From positions 34,326 to 98,325 of the forward strand of contig JAGUZU010000106.1 of NCBI GenBank assembly GCA_020060625.1: a stretch of 64,000 nt of DNA. Reading direction: 5' to 3'. Under the pieces are notes generated by a model. That model did not search any database. It was given only the letters and a program-made list of their open reading frames with translations, and was not told where the DNA came from. This document shows positions 1,366 to 10,242 of the stretch, in pieces (the stretch's first letter is position 1; every line of letters begins with the position of its first letter). The position numbers were made by a program, and so were the translations under genes. The stretch comes from Anaerolineales bacterium (GTDB taxonomy: Bacteria; Chloroflexota; Anaerolineae; Anaerolineales; Villigracilaceae).

Positions 1366-2292
1366 CTAAATCGCCCACTCTTTCTTTTTGACGGGGATTT
1401 CCCTTGCGATCTCCGCCGCGAGGCGGGCGTTATTTAATAACAATGCGAGATTGGCTTTGAGGGATTTGCCCTTCGTCAATTCACCGATGCGGGACAGCAA
1501 AAATGGAGTCAACGCCTGACCGTGGATTCCCTGCGCGACGGCTTCAGCAGACGCTTTGGCGATGATCGGCTCCATCCCGGACGTTGGAATTGATTCTGCT
1601 TCGGGAATTGGATTTGCCACGAGGATGCCGCTCTTCATGCCCAGTTCCCAATGCGCTTTGGCGAAGTCTGCGATCTCTTTGGGTGAGTCGAGCCGCGCGC
1701 TGACGTTTAGTCCGCTTTCGCGGGAATAAAAGGCGGGGAATTCGTCGGTTCTGTAGCCGACGACGGGAACGCCCATGGTTTCGAGAACTTCGAGTGTGGC
1801 AGGCAAATCCAGAATCGCTTTCGCTCCCGCGCACACGACGATGGTCGGAATCTCCGCCAGCGAACGCAGGTCGGTGGAAATATCGAAGGGACTCTCCTTG
1901 TGGACTCCGCCGATTCCGCCTGTAGCGAAAACCTTGATTCCCGCCATGTTCGCGGCGAACATCGTCCCTGCGACGGTGGTGCCGCCGTTCGCTTTTTTGA
2001 CGATGGCGGCGGCGAAGTCGCGGTGACTGACTTTGAGCGTGGAGTCGGATTCAGAAAACTGAACCAGTTCCTGGTCGGAGAGTCCGATGCGGATTTTTCC
2101 GTCCAGCAGGGCAATCGTGGCGGGGGTTGCGCCGTGGTCGCGCACCTGTTTTTCCATATCCCGCGCGAGTTGGAGGTTTTGCGGTTGGGGAAGCCCGTGC
2201 GTGATGACGGTGGATTCAAGCGCGACGATGGGAGCGCCAATATCGAGGGCGCGCGAAATTTCGGGGGAAAGTTGGATGTGAGGATGTCTCAT
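1366..2292 (-). CDS. psuG: Pseudouridine-5'-phosphate glycosidase
   Basis: PsuG signature (PIVALESTVITHGLPQPQN..., NGGTTVAGTMFAANMAGIKVFATGGIGGVH...); start overlaps upstream stop as TAATG. Confidence 0.93.
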   Translation of the reverse strand: MRHPHIQLSPEISRALDIGAPIVALESTVITHGLPQPQNLQLARDMEKQVRDHGATPATIALLDGKIRIGLSDQELVQFSESDSTLKVSHRDFAAAIVKKANGGTTVAGTMFAANMAGIKVFATGGIGGVHKESPFDISTDLRSLAEIPTIVVCAGAKAILDLPATLEVLETMGVPVVGYRTDEFPAFYSRESGLNVSARLDSPKEIADFAKAHWELGMKSGILVANPIPEAESIPTSGMEPIIAKASAEAVAQGIHGQALTPFLLSRIGELTKGKSLKANLALLLNNARLAAEIAREIPVKKKEWAI

Positions 2293-3887
2293 TAGGTTTT
2301 CTGTATGTAGTGGAAGAGGTTGTGGTCTATGTCGTGAAGCGCCTTTTTGATTTTTGAGATGTCGGCTTGTTTTTCGATCGGCGACCGGTTTTCTTTTTGA
2401 ATCAGTTCCATCGCCGCGATCAGTTCCTTGCGGACGGCTTTCAGGATTTCCACGGCGATTGCGTGCGCGTCCTTTTTGCTGGCGCTTTGCTGGGCGATCT
2501 GACGCAGGAGGTAGGGGCTGGTGGCAACCTCGGAACTGCTTTCGATCAGTTTCGCCAGGTCTGTGATCTCCCGGTCGGTGAGACGGCGGGTGGTGGTCTT
2601 TTCGTAGTTGGCAATGACGACGTTGTTGACGAGTTCGATGATCTCGTTCAATTCATACTTTTTTGCCAAATGCTCGATGGCGTTGCGGCGTTTGATGTTT
2701 TCGCGGGTGAGGTCCCACGCCTCTTTGAGTTTTTCCAATATTACGGCGGACGGCAATTGCCAGGTGCCGATGTCGATCCAATGGACGGAGACGCCGAGTT
2801 TTGCGGCTTTGTGCTTGAAGGCTGGTTCGAAGAATTGCGCGGTGATTTTGGAGCGCGACTCGAAGTTGGGCGGGAGCATGTTCTTTGTCCGGTTCAACAG
2901 CGTGTGTTCGCCGGTCATTTCCACACGCATTTGGGTGATGGTCTGTTCGTTCTTTGTGATGGCGTCCACTTCCTTTTGGCTGATGCTGGCAAGGATTTCG
3001 CTGAGCGTGCGCGTGGTGATCAATTTTTCCAATTCGTAGGTTACGAGCGGGATTACCGTCGTATCCCAGGGGAAGGTTACGCCGGAGGGCGTGGACGGCG
3101 GCGGCGTGATGATGCTCTGGTTATAGACGAGCGCCTTTACCGCATCCGGTTCGAAGGAGTACGGGTCTTCTTCGAGCGCGTCGTCCTGCGGGGGCGGTTT
3201 TCGCAGGATGCTGAAGATGACTTTGATATCCAGCGCTTCGATCGGGATGCCGTCCTTGGTGCGCGCCCGGACCGAAAGCCCGCGGACGAACTGATCGCGC
3301 AGGTTGATGGCGGCGTACTCGCGCCTGCCCACTTCGTCGTGCTTGCCGATCTCGCGGATGCGCTCGAACCTGCCGAGCATCCACGCCTCGCCTCTTGGAT
3401 AAATGACCTCCGGCTCGCCATTGACCTTTTCCAACAGCGCGGCGCTGCCAAGATTGACTTGTATTTCGCCGGGTCCGCCGATGAGGATGATGGGCGACTG
3501 TTCGTCCTGTTCGGAGATCTTGCCTTCGTTAATGATGATGCGCTCCCCGCTCCCTCCGAAGGCGACCTCTTCGATGAATTCCGATGCCAGGGTTTCGTCG
3601 TGTAGTTCGTAAATGTCATCCAGATAGTGCGCCGCCTTCGCCTTTGCCGCGCCGTACACGACGAACAAAAGCGGAAGGTATTTGGCGAAATTCAGCCCGA
3701 TGATGACGAGGCGATGGGTGGATTGCTCCGCCTGGAACACCGTGAGTAGCATGGCGAGCCCGCTCAACACGAGCCACAATGCAAGCCCGGCAAGAATCCG
3801 CCAGCGGTTTCTGAATTCGACGCTTTTATCCGTCAAACCGAAAAGCAGGGCTGAGAGTTCGTCGCGCTGGGTGGATTGCCGTTTCAT
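2292..3887 (-). CDS. Divergent SPFH/band-7-like membrane protein (copy 4)
   Basis: N-terminal hydrophobic segments then PHB-like core (GPGEIQVNLGSAALLEKVNG...VRARTKDGIPIEALDIKVIFSI), charged helical C-terminus. ATG at 3887 overlaps preceding stop. Confidence 0.7.
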   Translation of the reverse strand: MKRQSTQRDELSALLFGLTDKSVEFRNRWRILAGLALWLVLSGLAMLLTVFQAEQSTHRLVIIGLNFAKYLPLLFVVYGAAKAKAAHYLDDIYELHDETLASEFIEEVAFGGSGERIIINEGKISEQDEQSPIILIGGPGEIQVNLGSAALLEKVNGEPEVIYPRGEAWMLGRFERIREIGKHDEVGRREYAAINLRDQFVRGLSVRARTKDGIPIEALDIKVIFSILRKPPPQDDALEEDPYSFEPDAVKALVYNQSIITPPPSTPSGVTFPWDTTVIPLVTYELEKLITTRTLSEILASISQKEVDAITKNEQTITQMRVEMTGEHTLLNRTKNMLPPNFESRSKITAQFFEPAFKHKAAKLGVSVHWIDIGTWQLPSAVILEKLKEAWDLTRENIKRRNAIEHLAKKYELNEIIELVNNVVIANYEKTTTRRLTDREITDLAKLIESSSEVATSPYLLRQIAQQSASKKDAHAIAVEILKAVRKELIAAMELIQKENRSPIEKQADISKIKKALHDIDHNLFHYIQKT

Positions 3888-5296
3888 GAGTTGCCCTGTC
3901 CCGTTTGATGCCTGGACGCATCGAGCTTGTTGACCAACAGCCATTTCCAGATGTCGTCCAGTTTTTTGCGTTCGATTTCCATTTCGCTGTTCGCGCCGCT
4001 CTCCACCAGCAGGGATTCGCGCAGCGGTTCGATCAGGTTTTGCAGGGTGGCGTACTCATCCTGCGGGGGCGCTATGGGGTTGTCGAAATTCGCCGACACG
4101 ATGCGCGCAAAATTTTTGATCGCTTCGTTGCGGGCGGCGGTTTCGATCACTGCCTCCTCGTCGTTCAGGAGTTCCTCTTCGCGTTTGGCGGTTTTCATCC
4201 ATTCCGCGCTCCATTGTTTGGTGAGGTTCTCCTCCATTGCCGGTTCAAAGAGCAGGTTGTGGATACGCACCTGCGATATCTCAAGTCCGCGCGCCTGCAA
4301 TTGTTTGAATTCCAGGCTTTCGACCCATTCGCCTGTCGGTGTGCCTGTGTCGTCCAGCGCCACCACATCCGCCTGCCGAACGCGCTTGTTGATCATATCC
4401 TCGATGGTCTGTAATCCGCTGACGCCTTCGGAGGTGAACAATTCCTCCAGCTTGAATTTGCGGACGTATTCGCGCCATAAATTGACCACCAGGTGCGCCG
4501 GGAGTTTGTTCCATTCCATGCGGGTCTTTTTGTTGTCCGATGTGCCAAGTTCGATTACTTCGCGGGTGATGGCGTTGCGAACGGAAGCCGGGTCGAACCC
4601 GTATTGCGAGATCACCCCGCTTTCGGTCGGTTTGTTTTGAATGGGGCGTTTGATGCTGAATTTGACGCTGATGGTCGGCGAGACCTCGAAACCATCGCGG
4701 GTCAACCCGGCGGTTTGCTGGCGGCGATTCTGCAATTCGTTATAGACTTTGGGAGAGGAGATCGGCACCGGATTCAAGAACGGCTGGTCGCTCGCAAGCG
4801 GACCGATGAACTGCCACTGCGACCGGAGATCGACACTCCCTGCTACATATTCCTTCCCGCTCGTGAACTTGATCCCGGGACCCACCGCGCCTTTGATCTG
4901 CGTGTCTGTCCGCAGGACGACTGCGCTGGCGGTATCCAACGCCAGCACGCCGGGACCGCGTTTGCCCGCCTCGCCTTCATGTTCGATGACGCGCCCGTTC
5001 TTGATGAAGAGCGTCGGTCCGCGCTGACCGGATTCGAATATCTTGACCCGCGCGTAAATCTCCCTCCTGTCCTTCGGATTTTGAATGGGCAGGATGAATT
5101 GCGCAAAGAAATAGATCAGGCGGTCGAGGAGATAATAGGCGGCGAAAAAGTCAATGATGAGAATGACGACGCTGACGATGGGATTAAACGGAATATCCAG
5201 CCCCCACAGGATGCCATGCCAGATGCCGGCTGTGGCAAGGATGACGCCAAACGGCGTTTGCAGGATTGAGCCGAGCCCGCTGAGGAGTCTTCGCAT
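3884..5296 (-). CDS. Divergent SPFH/band-7-like membrane protein (copy 3)
   Basis: Two hydrophobic segments; RGPGVLALDTASAVVLRTDTQIKGAVGPGIKFT...AGLTRDGFEVSPTISVKFSI. Confidence 0.7.
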   Translation of the reverse strand: MRRLLSGLGSILQTPFGVILATAGIWHGILWGLDIPFNPIVSVVILIIDFFAAYYLLDRLIYFFAQFILPIQNPKDRREIYARVKIFESGQRGPTLFIKNGRVIEHEGEAGKRGPGVLALDTASAVVLRTDTQIKGAVGPGIKFTSGKEYVAGSVDLRSQWQFIGPLASDQPFLNPVPISSPKVYNELQNRRQQTAGLTRDGFEVSPTISVKFSIKRPIQNKPTESGVISQYGFDPASVRNAITREVIELGTSDNKKTRMEWNKLPAHLVVNLWREYVRKFKLEELFTSEGVSGLQTIEDMINKRVRQADVVALDDTGTPTGEWVESLEFKQLQARGLEISQVRIHNLLFEPAMEENLTKQWSAEWMKTAKREEELLNDEEAVIETAARNEAIKNFARIVSANFDNPIAPPQDEYATLQNLIEPLRESLLVESGANSEMEIERKKLDDIWKWLLVNKLDASRHQTGQGNS

Positions 5297-5299
5297 TTA

Positions 5300-5324
5300 G
5301 GTCGATTCTAAAGCAGAATCGACC
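5300..5324 (-). promoter_or_regulatory. Perfect hairpin (GGTCGATTCT-N5-AGAATCGACC) directly 5' of the SPFH copy 3 start codon
   Basis: 10-bp perfect arms; ends 4 nt from the ATG (5294-5296), where an SD would be expected. Confidence 0.6.
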
Positions 5325-5354
5325 AAACCGCCAACCGCTTTGTGGAAGATGACA

Positions 5355-6572
5355 TCAAGGGGCAATGGGTTTTGCCACGGCATGAACAATGCCGAAGATG
5401 CGAATGTTTTCCGTGATTTCGATGTCTGCGGTTTCGGAACCCTTGATACTGGATTCTGACCTGAGCATGTTCTTCTCTGCGTCGAAGCGTTTCACAAAGT
5501 AGAAAGTTTCGTCCGTTTCTTCTTCGAGGCGGCAGGCAACCACGACATCGTTATGATTGCTGTTGGAATTGCGCTCAACCAGCACATAATCGCCGTCTCG
5601 AATGGAGACGGTACCCTTTTTCATCTTGTTCATGCTGTTTCCCCGCACTTTCATCCAACCCCATTCATTTCCTTTTGACAGGGTAATTCTCTTGTCCGGT
5701 TTCAATGGGTGCAGGCTGTGGGGCTTGCCATCCAGGTTAAGGCGGTCAATTTCGGCGGATTTTCCTGTTATATCCGGTGATAGGGGCTCGCCAGAGCGGC
5801 TTGCCCGAATTTTCTGACCGTAAATTTTCTGCGAGGATAAAGTCATATAACCCAATTGATCGGTACGGGTTTCGGTTTCCTGCGGGGTTTCATCCTCCGG
5901 TTCGCTGGGTATTGACGATGCGGCATGAAAGACGATTTTATTGGATGGGTAATTCTCGTTCGTGAGCGAGATGGGAATGTGTAAAGTTACGGATGGCAAG
6001 TCATCCTCGTCGTCTGTGGGAGGATCCTGCACGGGAAAGAGGTCGGTATTTTCAGCAGGATCAGGCATAAATGTCCGAAAGAGAGGCTCGTTGGATAGTC
6101 GTTCCAGCGCATCGTTGACTTCCATTTGAAGAATCCTGCGAATATTGCCCTCCCTTTCCGCTTCGGGTGAATTGATTCGCACGCTGGTTTCGAGGGAGTG
6201 CAAGGCTCTTTGCAGGGCGCGCCGCGCTTCACGAAAATTTCGAACGGCAACGTGGCATAGCCCAAGCGCCCGGTACGCAAGGGATTTGTTGACCGGCGAG
6301 TTCCACATCTCTTGCGTGGCAGTGTTGAAACATTCGATTGCGCGGTCGAATTGATCCCGTTCGTAATGCAAACACCCGAGCAGAAAACGATGAATGCCGA
6401 TCAGGTCATGATTTTCCAGGTTGGTCTGGGCAAGGATGTTGCTTAACTCGGCGATGGCTGCCTGCAACGGATCGGGTTCGTTGGAATCCAATTGCAGGAT
6501 TGCGTCACGAATGCGAAGCATTTCGCCCTCGCAAATTAACAGGGTGACGATGGCGGCAATATCGTTTTTCAT
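5355..6572 (-). CDS. TPR-repeat protein with C-terminal LexA/S24-type peptidase domain
   Basis: TPR-like N-terminus (FLLGCLHYERDQFDRAIECFNTA...AYRALGLCHVAVRNFREARRALQRAL); C-terminus VRGNSMNKMKKGTVSIRDGDYVLVERNS...NDVVVACRLEEETDETFYFVKRF matches LexA/UmuD Ser (GxSM) and Lys (VKRL-like) motifs. No HTH recognised. Confidence 0.75.
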   Translation of the reverse strand: MKNDIAAIVTLLICEGEMLRIRDAILQLDSNEPDPLQAAIAELSNILAQTNLENHDLIGIHRFLLGCLHYERDQFDRAIECFNTATQEMWNSPVNKSLAYRALGLCHVAVRNFREARRALQRALHSLETSVRINSPEAEREGNIRRILQMEVNDALERLSNEPLFRTFMPDPAENTDLFPVQDPPTDDEDDLPSVTLHIPISLTNENYPSNKIVFHAASSIPSEPEDETPQETETRTDQLGYMTLSSQKIYGQKIRASRSGEPLSPDITGKSAEIDRLNLDGKPHSLHPLKPDKRITLSKGNEWGWMKVRGNSMNKMKKGTVSIRDGDYVLVERNSNSNHNDVVVACRLEEETDETFYFVKRFDAEKNMLRSESSIKGSETADIEITENIRIFGIVHAVAKPIAP

Positions 6573-7897
6573 GAATTGTTTCCGGGCATTTGCATTGGGA
6601 ACTTGATCGCTTCCTGCAGCTTTTCCAGCGTTTCGAGCGCTTCCCTGGCAAGGTTTGACCGCACCTCGGGACTCTGCATGCTTTGGTCGAGAAACCCTGA
6701 GACGGTCAGCAAGAGGTTTTCCGGGAAGCTGGCTGAGTCAATGCGATTGAGTCCATTGGCAAGGGTTAGGATCAAGTCTCGCTGCATTTCGGCGCGGGCT
6801 TTCTCCTGCAAGCGGATGCGATGCGCCGCCACTTCGCCTTTCGTAATGGCGGTTGTATTTTTATGCGCCGTCTCCCATGTTAGTTTGCGCAGGCGGTTCA
6901 CTTTGGGAGGCAGTTCAACTTCCATGATTTGCAGGTTTAACAGCGATACGCCGTACTCCTGAAGTTTTTCGTTGATGTTTTGACTCAACTCCATAATGTT
7001 TGCGTTTGAAAGCAGGGTGGTCTGGCTGTGTTCCTTCAGGAACAATTGATCCAGATACCTTCTGGAAATGAAGCCGCCCAGAATTCCCTGGGTTTGACCC
7101 GTTGCGAAATTGACCCATTCGCTCGTTTCCTTGCCGTTTTTATATGTGTGTTCGACCGCTTTGCGGACGGAGACGGGGTCGAAGGGAATTAACTTGTTTT
7201 CATCGTTCTCGCTTCGCTCCTGACCGAGAAAATATTCTCCGCGTACCCGAAGCTTCACCCTGATTCCATCCTTTGTCCATGCGGTCAGTTCGATTTCCTC
7301 GGTCTTGGGACCAACGTCCAGCACGGCGGCAACCCGTTCGTCCCAATGCAGAAACGCAGCGCCCTGCCCAACCACCCTTGAGAATTGCCCAAGGTGTTCG
7401 AGGTAAAGCGCGTGACCCGGCTTGATGACCAGTTTGACTGGTCCACCGATGATTGTTGCCCAGTGATTCGGCGGGTCCAGTTTTTGTTCCCTGGCTGTTA
7501 CTGTTTGGAATTTGATCCATTTGGAAAAAGGGGGCGGCATGAGCGGCACGCCGGAAACGCGTATTTTCACGATTTCGAGCAGGTCATTCTCTTCATTCAG
7601 ATTGTGGAATTGTTGGATGAATTTTGCCGCAGACTGAAAAATATAATACCTGCCGATTGCGTAGAACACAAGTGAAACCGAAGCCACGCCAAGAATCTCC
7701 TGCCACGTAAGTTCCCTCGCCTCGGGACGCTCTTTTAGTGTTCCAAGGAGAAGAACAATGTAGAATATCGAAAAGGCAACGGCAAAGAAGGGCAGGACGG
7801 TCAACTGACCGTCTTTGCCCATCGAATCTTCATGGGCTTGTTTTTCCGTATAAAGTCCCTGCCACTTCTGTGGATCGTTGGATGGTTTGAATGGCAT
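6569..7897 (-). CDS. Divergent SPFH/band-7-like membrane protein (copy 2)
   Basis: Two hydrophobic segments; GGPVKLVIKPGHALYLEHLGQFSRVVGQGAAFL...AWTKDGIRVKLRVRGEYFLG; ATGA overlap with the TPR-S24 gene. Confidence 0.7.
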   Translation of the reverse strand: MPFKPSNDPQKWQGLYTEKQAHEDSMGKDGQLTVLPFFAVAFSIFYIVLLLGTLKERPEARELTWQEILGVASVSLVFYAIGRYYIFQSAAKFIQQFHNLNEENDLLEIVKIRVSGVPLMPPPFSKWIKFQTVTAREQKLDPPNHWATIIGGPVKLVIKPGHALYLEHLGQFSRVVGQGAAFLHWDERVAAVLDVGPKTEEIELTAWTKDGIRVKLRVRGEYFLGQERSENDENKLIPFDPVSVRKAVEHTYKNGKETSEWVNFATGQTQGILGGFISRRYLDQLFLKEHSQTTLLSNANIMELSQNINEKLQEYGVSLLNLQIMEVELPPKVNRLRKLTWETAHKNTTAITKGEVAAHRIRLQEKARAEMQRDLILTLANGLNRIDSASFPENLLLTVSGFLDQSMQSPEVRSNLAREALETLEKLQEAIKFPMQMPGNNS

Positions 7898-7903
7898 GAT
7901 CGG

Positions 7904-9475
7904 TTATTCTCCGCGCGGATTGATAAGGTGTTGTCTGGCATGCAGGATGCCGTTTTGCGCCTTGCGGCTGTCTTTGTCATTTTCGTCACCCTGCTGCTCA
8001 TCGACCAGTTGCTCCAGAACGCCGATGAACCGCAGGGCGATTACGTATCGCGGCAGGTTTTCATGCAATGCCCGTGTTTGCTGTAATCCCTCCGCGATGG
8101 CTGTGAGCAGGGCGGAGTGGGCATACGCGCGCGCCTCCTGCTGGATGCGTTCCGCCTCGGCTTTTCCATTTTCGAGTGCAATGGATCGCTTTTTCTCCCA
8201 TTCCAAAGTCCACGCATCCAGTTGACGGTTGACGATCTCGTCTTCCTTATCGGTTTTATTCCCGCTGTTGAAGGAGAAATCAAACGCTTTTGCGTTGATC
8301 AGGCGGATGCCCATTTTGCGGAGGGGTAGATCCAACTGGTTCCTCATTACATTTGCAATTTCCTCTGCCGCGCTGCCTTCTGCAAATACGCGCGCCCTCC
8401 ATAATTCCTCGATGGAACGCTCGGAAAGTGTTTCACGAGCCGCCTCCTCCGCCATCGCGAGAACCCGGTCATCCCAACGAACGGTGATCTCTTCGCTTTT
8501 CTCTGGCGTTTTTTTGCTTCTGAAACTCAATGCTGCCTTGACGCGCGCGTATGAATACGGAAAGATTCCATCGAGGTTTTTATCCGGTTCCCTGCCCTGG
8601 AATATATTGGCGCGGCGATACTCATGATATTGTTCCCGCGTCCAGGTTTCTTCATCAACCCGGAACGAAACCGAGACTTGCGCCTCCAACGGGATGCCCT
8701 CGCGGGAGATCGCCTTGATGAAGGATGTTCGCGTTCGAGACCGGAGATCCACCAACTCAAACGGTTGTGAGTCTTTATCGATATAGAACGCGCCGGGCCC
8801 ATGGACGCTGAAATCGGCGCCTTTCAACACGCCCGCTGCCTGATGCGGGTACGTCCATACCAGGCTTTTGACGGCTTTCAAACCTTGTCCGCCGTCGATG
8901 CGTTTCTCCGGCTCGTACGCCGTGCCGGATGGCGACTTCCAAATCGGCGGCTGGATGCCCCAAAGGTAGGCAAGGAATAGCATAACCCGGTTCAGCGCTT
9001 CCGCGCCCCCTCTCTGGCTGGAAGCGGGAACGACCGCCAGCGCAACATAATATGCCGTAAGATACCAGGCAAACAGGATGGGCAGTGAGACCATGAACAT
9101 ACCCATCCAGCCGTCAATCACCCAGCCGAAAAGAAAGAGCAGATACGTCCCTGTGAAGGTAACGGCTCCGCGCCATTCGGCGTGTTTCCTTCCAATGAAT
9201 ACCGCCAGTCCAGCCGCCAGGATGATTGACCAACGAAGAGATTCGGCGAGGAAATTCTGTTTGGATAGGTCTTCCAGAAAATAGGGAAGCCAGAGGAATA
9301 CGATACCGCCCAATACGAGAACTTCGAGCATGAATAAAATTGACAGGAAGATCGCATTAGTGATACTGTATTCTTTTAGAATCTTGAAGGAGTATCTGGC
9401 GACAAGAAACATCAATGCAAGGGCGAAAATCCCTGTCATGCAAGCGCCGATGGAACCGTTGAGCGTGTCTGTCAT
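7904..9475 (-). CDS. Divergent SPFH/band-7-like membrane protein (copy 1, several N-terminal TM segments)
   Basis: GADFSVHGPGAFYIDKDSQPFELVDLRSRTRTSFIKAISREGIPLEAQVSVSFRVDEE = PHB-like core. ATG at 9475 preferred because GGGAGG precedes it; listed ORF starts at 9493. Confidence 0.7.
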   Translation of the reverse strand: MTDTLNGSIGACMTGIFALALMFLVARYSFKILKEYSITNAIFLSILFMLEVLVLGGIVFLWLPYFLEDLSKQNFLAESLRWSIILAAGLAVFIGRKHAEWRGAVTFTGTYLLFLFGWVIDGWMGMFMVSLPILFAWYLTAYYVALAVVPASSQRGGAEALNRVMLFLAYLWGIQPPIWKSPSGTAYEPEKRIDGGQGLKAVKSLVWTYPHQAAGVLKGADFSVHGPGAFYIDKDSQPFELVDLRSRTRTSFIKAISREGIPLEAQVSVSFRVDEETWTREQYHEYRRANIFQGREPDKNLDGIFPYSYARVKAALSFRSKKTPEKSEEITVRWDDRVLAMAEEAARETLSERSIEELWRARVFAEGSAAEEIANVMRNQLDLPLRKMGIRLINAKAFDFSFNSGNKTDKEDEIVNRQLDAWTLEWEKKRSIALENGKAEAERIQQEARAYAHSALLTAIAEGLQQTRALHENLPRYVIALRFIGVLEQLVDEQQGDENDKDSRKAQNGILHARQHLINPRGE

Positions 9476-9526
9476 TTCAAAAACGCCTCCCATTCATTGA
9501 CCGCCTTTTTGCAAGTAGACAAAAAC

Positions 9527-9556
9527 AGTATATACTTTTCCAAAACCCTTTGTCAA
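9527..9556 (-). promoter_or_regulatory. Sigma70-type promoter for the SPFH operon
   Basis: Minus strand TTGACA (9556-9551), 18-bp spacer, TATACT (9532-9527); -10 is inside palindrome AGTATATACT. Confidence 0.75.
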
Positions 9557-9567
9557 GAACGAAAACC

Positions 9568-10242
9568 ATGCTCACCCTCGAATTTCACTGCCACACCAGC
9601 GCTTCCAAAGATTCCCTGACCCGCCCGGAGGATTTGATTGAAACCGCGCGGCGCAAGGGATTGGATCGTGTCGTCGTCACCGATCACAACTCGATTGGGG
9701 GCGCGCTGGCGGCTCGACGCCTCGACCCGGAGCTGGTCATTGTGGGGGAGGAGATCATGACGACGAAAGGTGAAATCCTTGCGGCGTTTGTGCAGGAGGA
9801 GATTCCGGCTGGGTTGACACCCGAAGAAACCATCAGGCGGCTGAAGGGTCAGGGAGCGTTTATCAGCGTGTCGCATCCGTTCGATACGATGCGAAAGGGC
9901 GGATGGGTAGAGAGAGACCTGCTGGAAATCATCCCCCACGTGGATGCGATTGAAGTCTTCAACTCGCGCTGCATGGATCCGCGCTTCAATCACCGGGCGC
10001 GGGCGTTTGCGGAGAAACACAACCTCGCCGGGACAGCCGGCTCGGATGCACACGGTTTAATCGAGCTGGGAAAAGCCGTCATGGCGCTGGAGCAGTTTGA
10101 AGGTCCGGAGGGGATGCGGCAGGTCATCCGCACGGCGAGATTCAAGACGAAGTTATCCCCCTGGTGGGTGCATTTGATCTCGCGTTATGCGTCCATGCGG
10201 AAGAAGATGGGGAGTTTTGATTACAGCCAACCCAAAGGATAA
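9568..10242 (+). CDS. PHP-domain metal-dependent phosphoesterase
   Basis: PHP motifs (FHCHTSASKDSLTRPEDLIETARRKGLDRVVVTDHNSIGGA...GTAGSDAH). ATG 9568 preferred over the TTG at 9550. Confidence 0.85.
   Translation: MLTLEFHCHTSASKDSLTRPEDLIETARRKGLDRVVVTDHNSIGGALAARRLDPELVIVGEEIMTTKGEILAAFVQEEIPAGLTPEETIRRLKGQGAFISVSHPFDTMRKGGWVERDLLEIIPHVDAIEVFNSRCMDPRFNHRARAFAEKHNLAGTAGSDAHGLIELGKAVMALEQFEGPEGMRQVIRTARFKTKLSPWWVHLISRYASMRKKMGSFDYSQPKG

Follow-up and report, generated by a model that had tools for sequence, protein, structure and literature searches.

A tetratricopeptide-linked S24 peptidase domain encoded among SPFH genes in an Anaerolineales bacterium, a candidate self-cleaving adaptor of a membrane scaffold

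To our knowledge, self-cleavage by S24 peptidase domains is known almost solely from SOS and phage repressors and from UmuD, and the functions of bacterial SPFH proteins are mostly unknown. An Ala-Gly (or Cys-Gly) scissile bond serves as a criterion for S24 proteins (PMC8565304), and IrvR is a LexA-like protein that is independent of RecA (PMC7101444). On the SPFH side, PH1510-N is a Ser-Lys protease which cleaves the stomatin PH1511 of the same operon (PMC3795559), and a 2009 survey of SPFH proteins names NfeD and FtsH as partners (PMC2636767). No description of an arrangement of SPFH, S24 and TPR was found in the literature searched, outside of which most subscription papers lay, and within the same scope the combinations of peptidase S24 with tetratricopeptide and LexA, and of SPFH with S24 family or LexA-like, also returned none.

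The gene described here lies in a window of 64,000 nucleotides, the whole stretch of Anaerolineales DNA that was analysed, and encodes a TPR-S24 protein of 405 amino acids, P0001 (5355..6572, minus strand). The original prediction gave no strand; the reading frame runs from 6572 to 5355. From its N-terminus, the protein consists of TPRs, a linker rich in acidic residues, and S24 at the C-terminus. The TPR-like region (residues 36-130; 6183..6467, minus) is recognised by Pfam TPR_2 (E=1.7e-8) and by strong matches of the P0001 family profile to consensus TPR structures. The linker (residues 165-246; 5835..6080, minus) is poorly conserved, with low column information, and its 82 residues include 17 D/E against 3 K/R, in agreement with the acidic linker originally proposed. 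The S24 peptidase domain (residues 297-396; 5385..5684, minus) matches Pfam Peptidase_S24 (PF00717) at E=5.7e-10, with 39.4 bits against a gathering cut-off of 23.3, and is recovered by fold modelling and Foldseek. Pfam finds no HTH family in P0001 up to E=1, so the earlier suggestion of an S24 domain with TPRs in place of an HTH holds, and the motifs on which it was built (GNSM, DGDYVLV, NDVVVACR, FYFVKRF and IYGQKIRASRSGEPL) are all present in the translation. In NCBIfam the best named relative is the UmuD family (E=7.7e-8, under its cut-off), and the LexA family matches weakly. A simple hydropathy scan found no hydrophobic segments in the TPR-S24 protein. We favour, with moderate confidence, a reading of P0001 as a soluble adaptor that binds an SPFH scaffold through its TPRs and is switched when the S24 domain cleaves its own chain, where both the docking and the self-cleavage are predicted.

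The predicted nucleophile, Ser313 (GNSMN; 5634..5636, minus), and the predicted general base, Lys361 (VKRF; 5490..5492, minus), were checked at the codon level and align with the LexA dyad Ser and Lys. In the family alignment (n=32) Ser313 is kept in 30 and Lys361 in 31 sequences. A family profile built from 17 relatives, compared with solved structures, matched chains of LexA, UmuD and lambda CI (best 3k2z, E=2e-17), and its GxSM serine and KR lysine fall on the LexA Ser-Lys dyad, which bears out the dyad proposed by analogy with LexA. A structure of whole P0001 predicted without an alignment was uninformative (pLDDT 35). The model of the S24 part, made from an alignment of 15 sequences with viral S24 homologs and being one of five that was far better than the others, has a mean pLDDT of 64 and a core of about 65-86, that is, moderate confidence. 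In Foldseek searches this model matched structures of lambda repressor, LexA and UmuD', each with a probability of 1.00.

Upstream of the dyad, a second and weak sub-match of the profile aligns the LexA A-G cleavage region with the corresponding P0001 segment in the right order. This sub-match and the family alignment place Ala257-Ser258 (5799..5804, minus) as the counterpart of the Ala-Gly scissile pair of relatives. P1 is Ala in 87.5% of the 32 aligned sequences and P1' is Gly in 84%, and the A-G site forms a conserved island within the variable linker. Where P1' is not Gly it is H, S or F, and the window protein has Ser; against the S24 scissile-bond criterion it reads Ala-Ser and most relatives Ala-Gly. 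It had been suggested that the usual Ala-Gly was apparently replaced by Ser/Arg-Ser-Gly. In fact P1 is still Ala, and the replacement, by Ser258, is confined to the P1' Gly; the closest ortholog (L022, 46.5% identical; L numbers denote individual loci) reads RAGRSGEP where the window protein has RASRSGEP. The similarity of RSGEP to AGEP, and one MAFFT alignment that pairs the two, would place the scissile bond at Ser260-Gly261. This position was set aside because the sequence of L022 is RAG-RSGEP, and because L129, which lacks the catalytic Ser, no longer has the A-G pair but retains the second Gly.

Two members of the family, L129 (GDGM) and L033, lack the catalytic Ser, and in both the P1 Ala is gone too; L069, a close sister of L129, keeps both the Ser and the A-G. 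A Ser that cleaves this bond within the same chain would be expected to disappear jointly with it, with the proviso that the joint loss is seen in two lineages only and that L033 sits on a long branch whose placement is uncertain. The conserved dyad, the conserved A-G island and the missing P1 Ala of Ser-less relatives indirectly support self-cleavage in the TPR-S24 family, as judged from sequence comparison. The same data bear on a different view, that the S24 domain of the window species is a non-cutting dimerisation or docking module descended from a self-cleaving ancestor. The Ser at P1' would fit such a module, as would the outright loss of the catalytic Ser in at least one relative (L129) and the slots that hold no S24 at all (L132, L140). 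We nevertheless consider it unlikely, as Ser313, Lys361 and the P1 Ala are all retained, the nearest ortholog reads Ala-Gly, and in the Ser-less relative, but not in the window protein, the cleavage site went together with the Ser.

The genes around P0001 place the self-cleaving adaptor that we favour beside a putative membrane scaffold. On the minus strand the order is B2, B1, TPR-S24, B3, B4 and a PsuG-like gene. B2 (7904..9493, minus), with several N-terminal hydrophobic segments, matches Band_7 at E=1.7e-4, just under the cut-off alone and above it, at 25 bits, together with its neighbours; B3 (3884..5296, minus) behaves likewise (E=1.4e-4, just under the cut-off alone, above it at 23.9 bits together with its neighbours). 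B1 (6569..7897, minus), the constant neighbour of TPR-S24 by co-occurrence, matches Band_7 at E=1.1e-9 and shares 4 bp at its end with the beginning of the TPR-S24 gene. B4 (2292..3944, minus), the partner of B3, has no significant Pfam match alone and is called SPFH-like on the basis of 115 bits with the B1 profile. N-terminal hydrophobic segments occur in all four proteins by a simple hydropathy scan, on which their predicted SPFH topology is based. The PsuG-like (Indigoidine_A) gene (1366..2292, minus; Pfam E=1.1e-123) closes the series. An SPFH gene thus adjoins a protease gene, as in known SPFH-protease operons; the protease is not of the NfeD/ClpP type and has an S24 fold instead. PADLOC gave no match among the window proteins.

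A sigma-70-like promoter, TTGACA-18-TATACT, with 11 of 12 consensus matches, precedes B2-B1-TPR-S24 (9527..9556, minus). Upstream of B3, at about 5297-5340, lies a TTCTGCTTTAGAATC-like element which is conserved in several species and ends a few bases before the ATG; it resembles an extended -10 element followed by a leaderless start, and in the window it also makes a strong hairpin. B3 apparently possesses a conserved promoter-like element separate from that of B2-B1-TPR-S24, and transcription of the cluster may be split into two units. Other genes accompany such clusters: PsuG-like genes recur beside related SPFH clusters (L071, L079, L080, L131), a PHP-domain gene flanks the cluster in the window (9550-10242) and PHP also recurs at L028 and L067, and a PfkB kinase follows the SPFH pair at L135.

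Genes for TPR-S24 proteins, identified with the family profile, were found in 16 of 61 sampled relatives. Within the genus they number 13, in 12 of 37 genomes, and B1 is present in exactly the same 12 genomes, also as 13 genes (E below 1e-75, the next best being 1e-30), each within about 130 bp of TPR-S24 (13/13). The chance of an identical set of 12 out of 37 is 5e-10, uncorrected for relatedness. The core SPFH gene B3 occurs in 35 of the 37. Some 31 TPR-S24 loci were examined across the class, and in about 28 of them one or two diverged SPFH genes lie upstream, either directly or with one gene between. TPR-S24 has no SPFH neighbour at L026 and L029, L033 ends at a contig end, and at L076 an SPFH gene is nearby but on the opposite strand. 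The inspected matches from outside the class, among 400 sampled genomes of the phylum, were LexA. A search of genome contigs with P0001 gave only TPR-region matches, in Competibacter, and phage and plasmid collections gave no match. The consistent position of an S24-TPR fusion beside membrane-scaffold genes suggests a protein switch at the membrane, not a gene switch. The original idea of a protein adaptor, as opposed to derepression of DNA, is supported and gains strength from this conserved linkage to SPFH membrane proteins.

Linkage to SPFH genes could also mean that the S24 domain is a processing peptidase acting in trans on its SPFH partners, in the manner of PH1510-N on stomatin PH1511. 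The TPR-S24/SPFH arrangement has a precedent in operons that pair an SPFH protein with a Ser-Lys protease (PMC3795559; PMC2636767); the TPRs could deliver the peptidase to the scaffold, and the dyad is almost invariant in the family alignment. However, it is the TPR-S24 protein that carries the cleavage motif, which the two Ser-less members lack, the B1 and B2 alignments contain no obvious conserved Ala-Gly motif by eye, and PH1510-N is outside the LexA family. Processing in trans therefore seems improbable to us.

Compared with 36 LexA domains, the peptidase domains of the TPR-S24 family fall together in a single clade that excludes LexA (support 96/96) and so do not group with the LexA repressors. 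The genome encodes a separate, ordinary LexA (L086, 1243-1920), upstream of whose start lies GAACAGGCGTTC, a GAACN4GTTC box. The region of the operon promoter (9493-9600) contains no GAACN4GTTC within 1 mismatch, where the box is inferred from the lexA promoter alone. The TPR-S24 gene is apparently outside the LexA regulon, and the link to RecA and the SOS response implied by the suggested cleavage test with RecA-ssDNA finds no support at this operon, though RecA may still stimulate the protein itself. LexA-like paralogs with a seemingly lost Ala-Gly site stand beside LexA at L059, L060 and L062. A transcription regulator with an unrecognised DNA-binding domain, for which the pairing of S24 and DNA-binding domains in LexA-like repressors (PMC8565304) could be cited, is highly improbable, as the N-terminus is TPR by Pfam and by strong matches to TPR structures, no HTH appears up to E=1, the linkage to membrane SPFH genes is conserved and the S24 clade stands apart from LexA.

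The occupant of the TPR-S24 slot varies among loci. A second subgroup keeps I/V-P-A-G and has a KAP-family NTPase as first gene of the operon (L028 3668-4996 and relatives), similar to the PADLOC families PifA and QatA. At L071 a TIR protein is encoded between SPFH and TPR-S24, and at L082 (2191-3192) a TIR protein is fused to the same TPR module, lacks S24 and, within the stretch read, has no SPFH neighbours. TPR-only proteins occupy the slot at L132, L133 and L140, which indicates that the TPR half can stand alone, and at L139 the TPR carries an unrelated tail. This variety of subtypes points to the TPR half as the constant part of the slot and to S24 as one of several partners. At L081, L132 and L133, SPFH proteins carry a WD40 or LVIVD propeller. 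An 859-aa AAA-TPR-S24 fusion (L084, 8475-11054) falls outside the TPR-S24 clade.

In the mechanism we propose for the self-cleaving adaptor, the TPR-S24 protein would be a soluble subunit, presumably on the cytosolic side, of a membrane scaffold module. Judging from gene linkage, its TPR half would dock on a hetero-oligomeric SPFH assembly formed by the operon partners B1 and B2. A signal would then bring the linker segment into the S24 active site, and the S24 half would cleave the linker of its own chain between Ala257 and Ser258, a pair that is Ala-Gly in most relatives. The two halves, TPR and S24, would thereby separate, and what is held at the membrane would change; the TPR half may be freed or re-sorted after the cut. 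The conversion of UmuD to UmuD' would be the precedent, in which partners change without DNA binding. More speculatively, a TPR module on SPFH scaffolds with exchangeable outputs (self-cleaving S24, TIR or none) may constitute a membrane-tethered signalling system, with a KAP NTPase in some lineages and possibly for stress or phage sensing, in which LexA-type self-cleavage would operate outside DNA damage and gene regulation; this broader picture is a tentative one. If the proposal is true, the S24 self-cleavage switch extends to membrane protein assemblies, and bacterial SPFH proteins gain a testable regulatory partner. Natural controls exist among the genomes, where the same slot is found with an intact dyad, without the Ser or as TPR only.

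Among known systems, UmuD resembles P0001 in having a LexA-fold Ser-Lys domain, no HTH and a self-cleavage motif, which is putative in P0001, and the cleavage of UmuD changes its protein partners. UmuD differs in having only a short N-terminal arm, UmuC as its partner and a tie to RecA and SOS, whereas the TPR-S24 protein has TPRs, SPFH neighbours and no LexA box. LexA, HdiR and phage CI share the S24 domain, the dyad and, before S24, an A-G cleavage segment, which in P0001 is a putative one reading Ala-Ser, but carry an N-terminal HTH where P0001 has TPRs and a separate S24 clade. Stomatin-NfeD/STOPP (PH1511-PH1510) and HflKC-FtsH likewise link an SPFH membrane protein to a protease, either by gene position or in a complex, and PH1510-N also uses a Ser-Lys dyad; their proteases are of another fold, are membrane-bound and have neither S24 nor TPR. 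In the PspA-YdjGHI system of Bacillus subtilis a soluble protein of the same operon depends on an SPFH protein for its recruitment to the membrane (PMC8581546), as we propose for P0001, but that soluble protein is the ESCRT-III-like PspA and a peptidase is absent.
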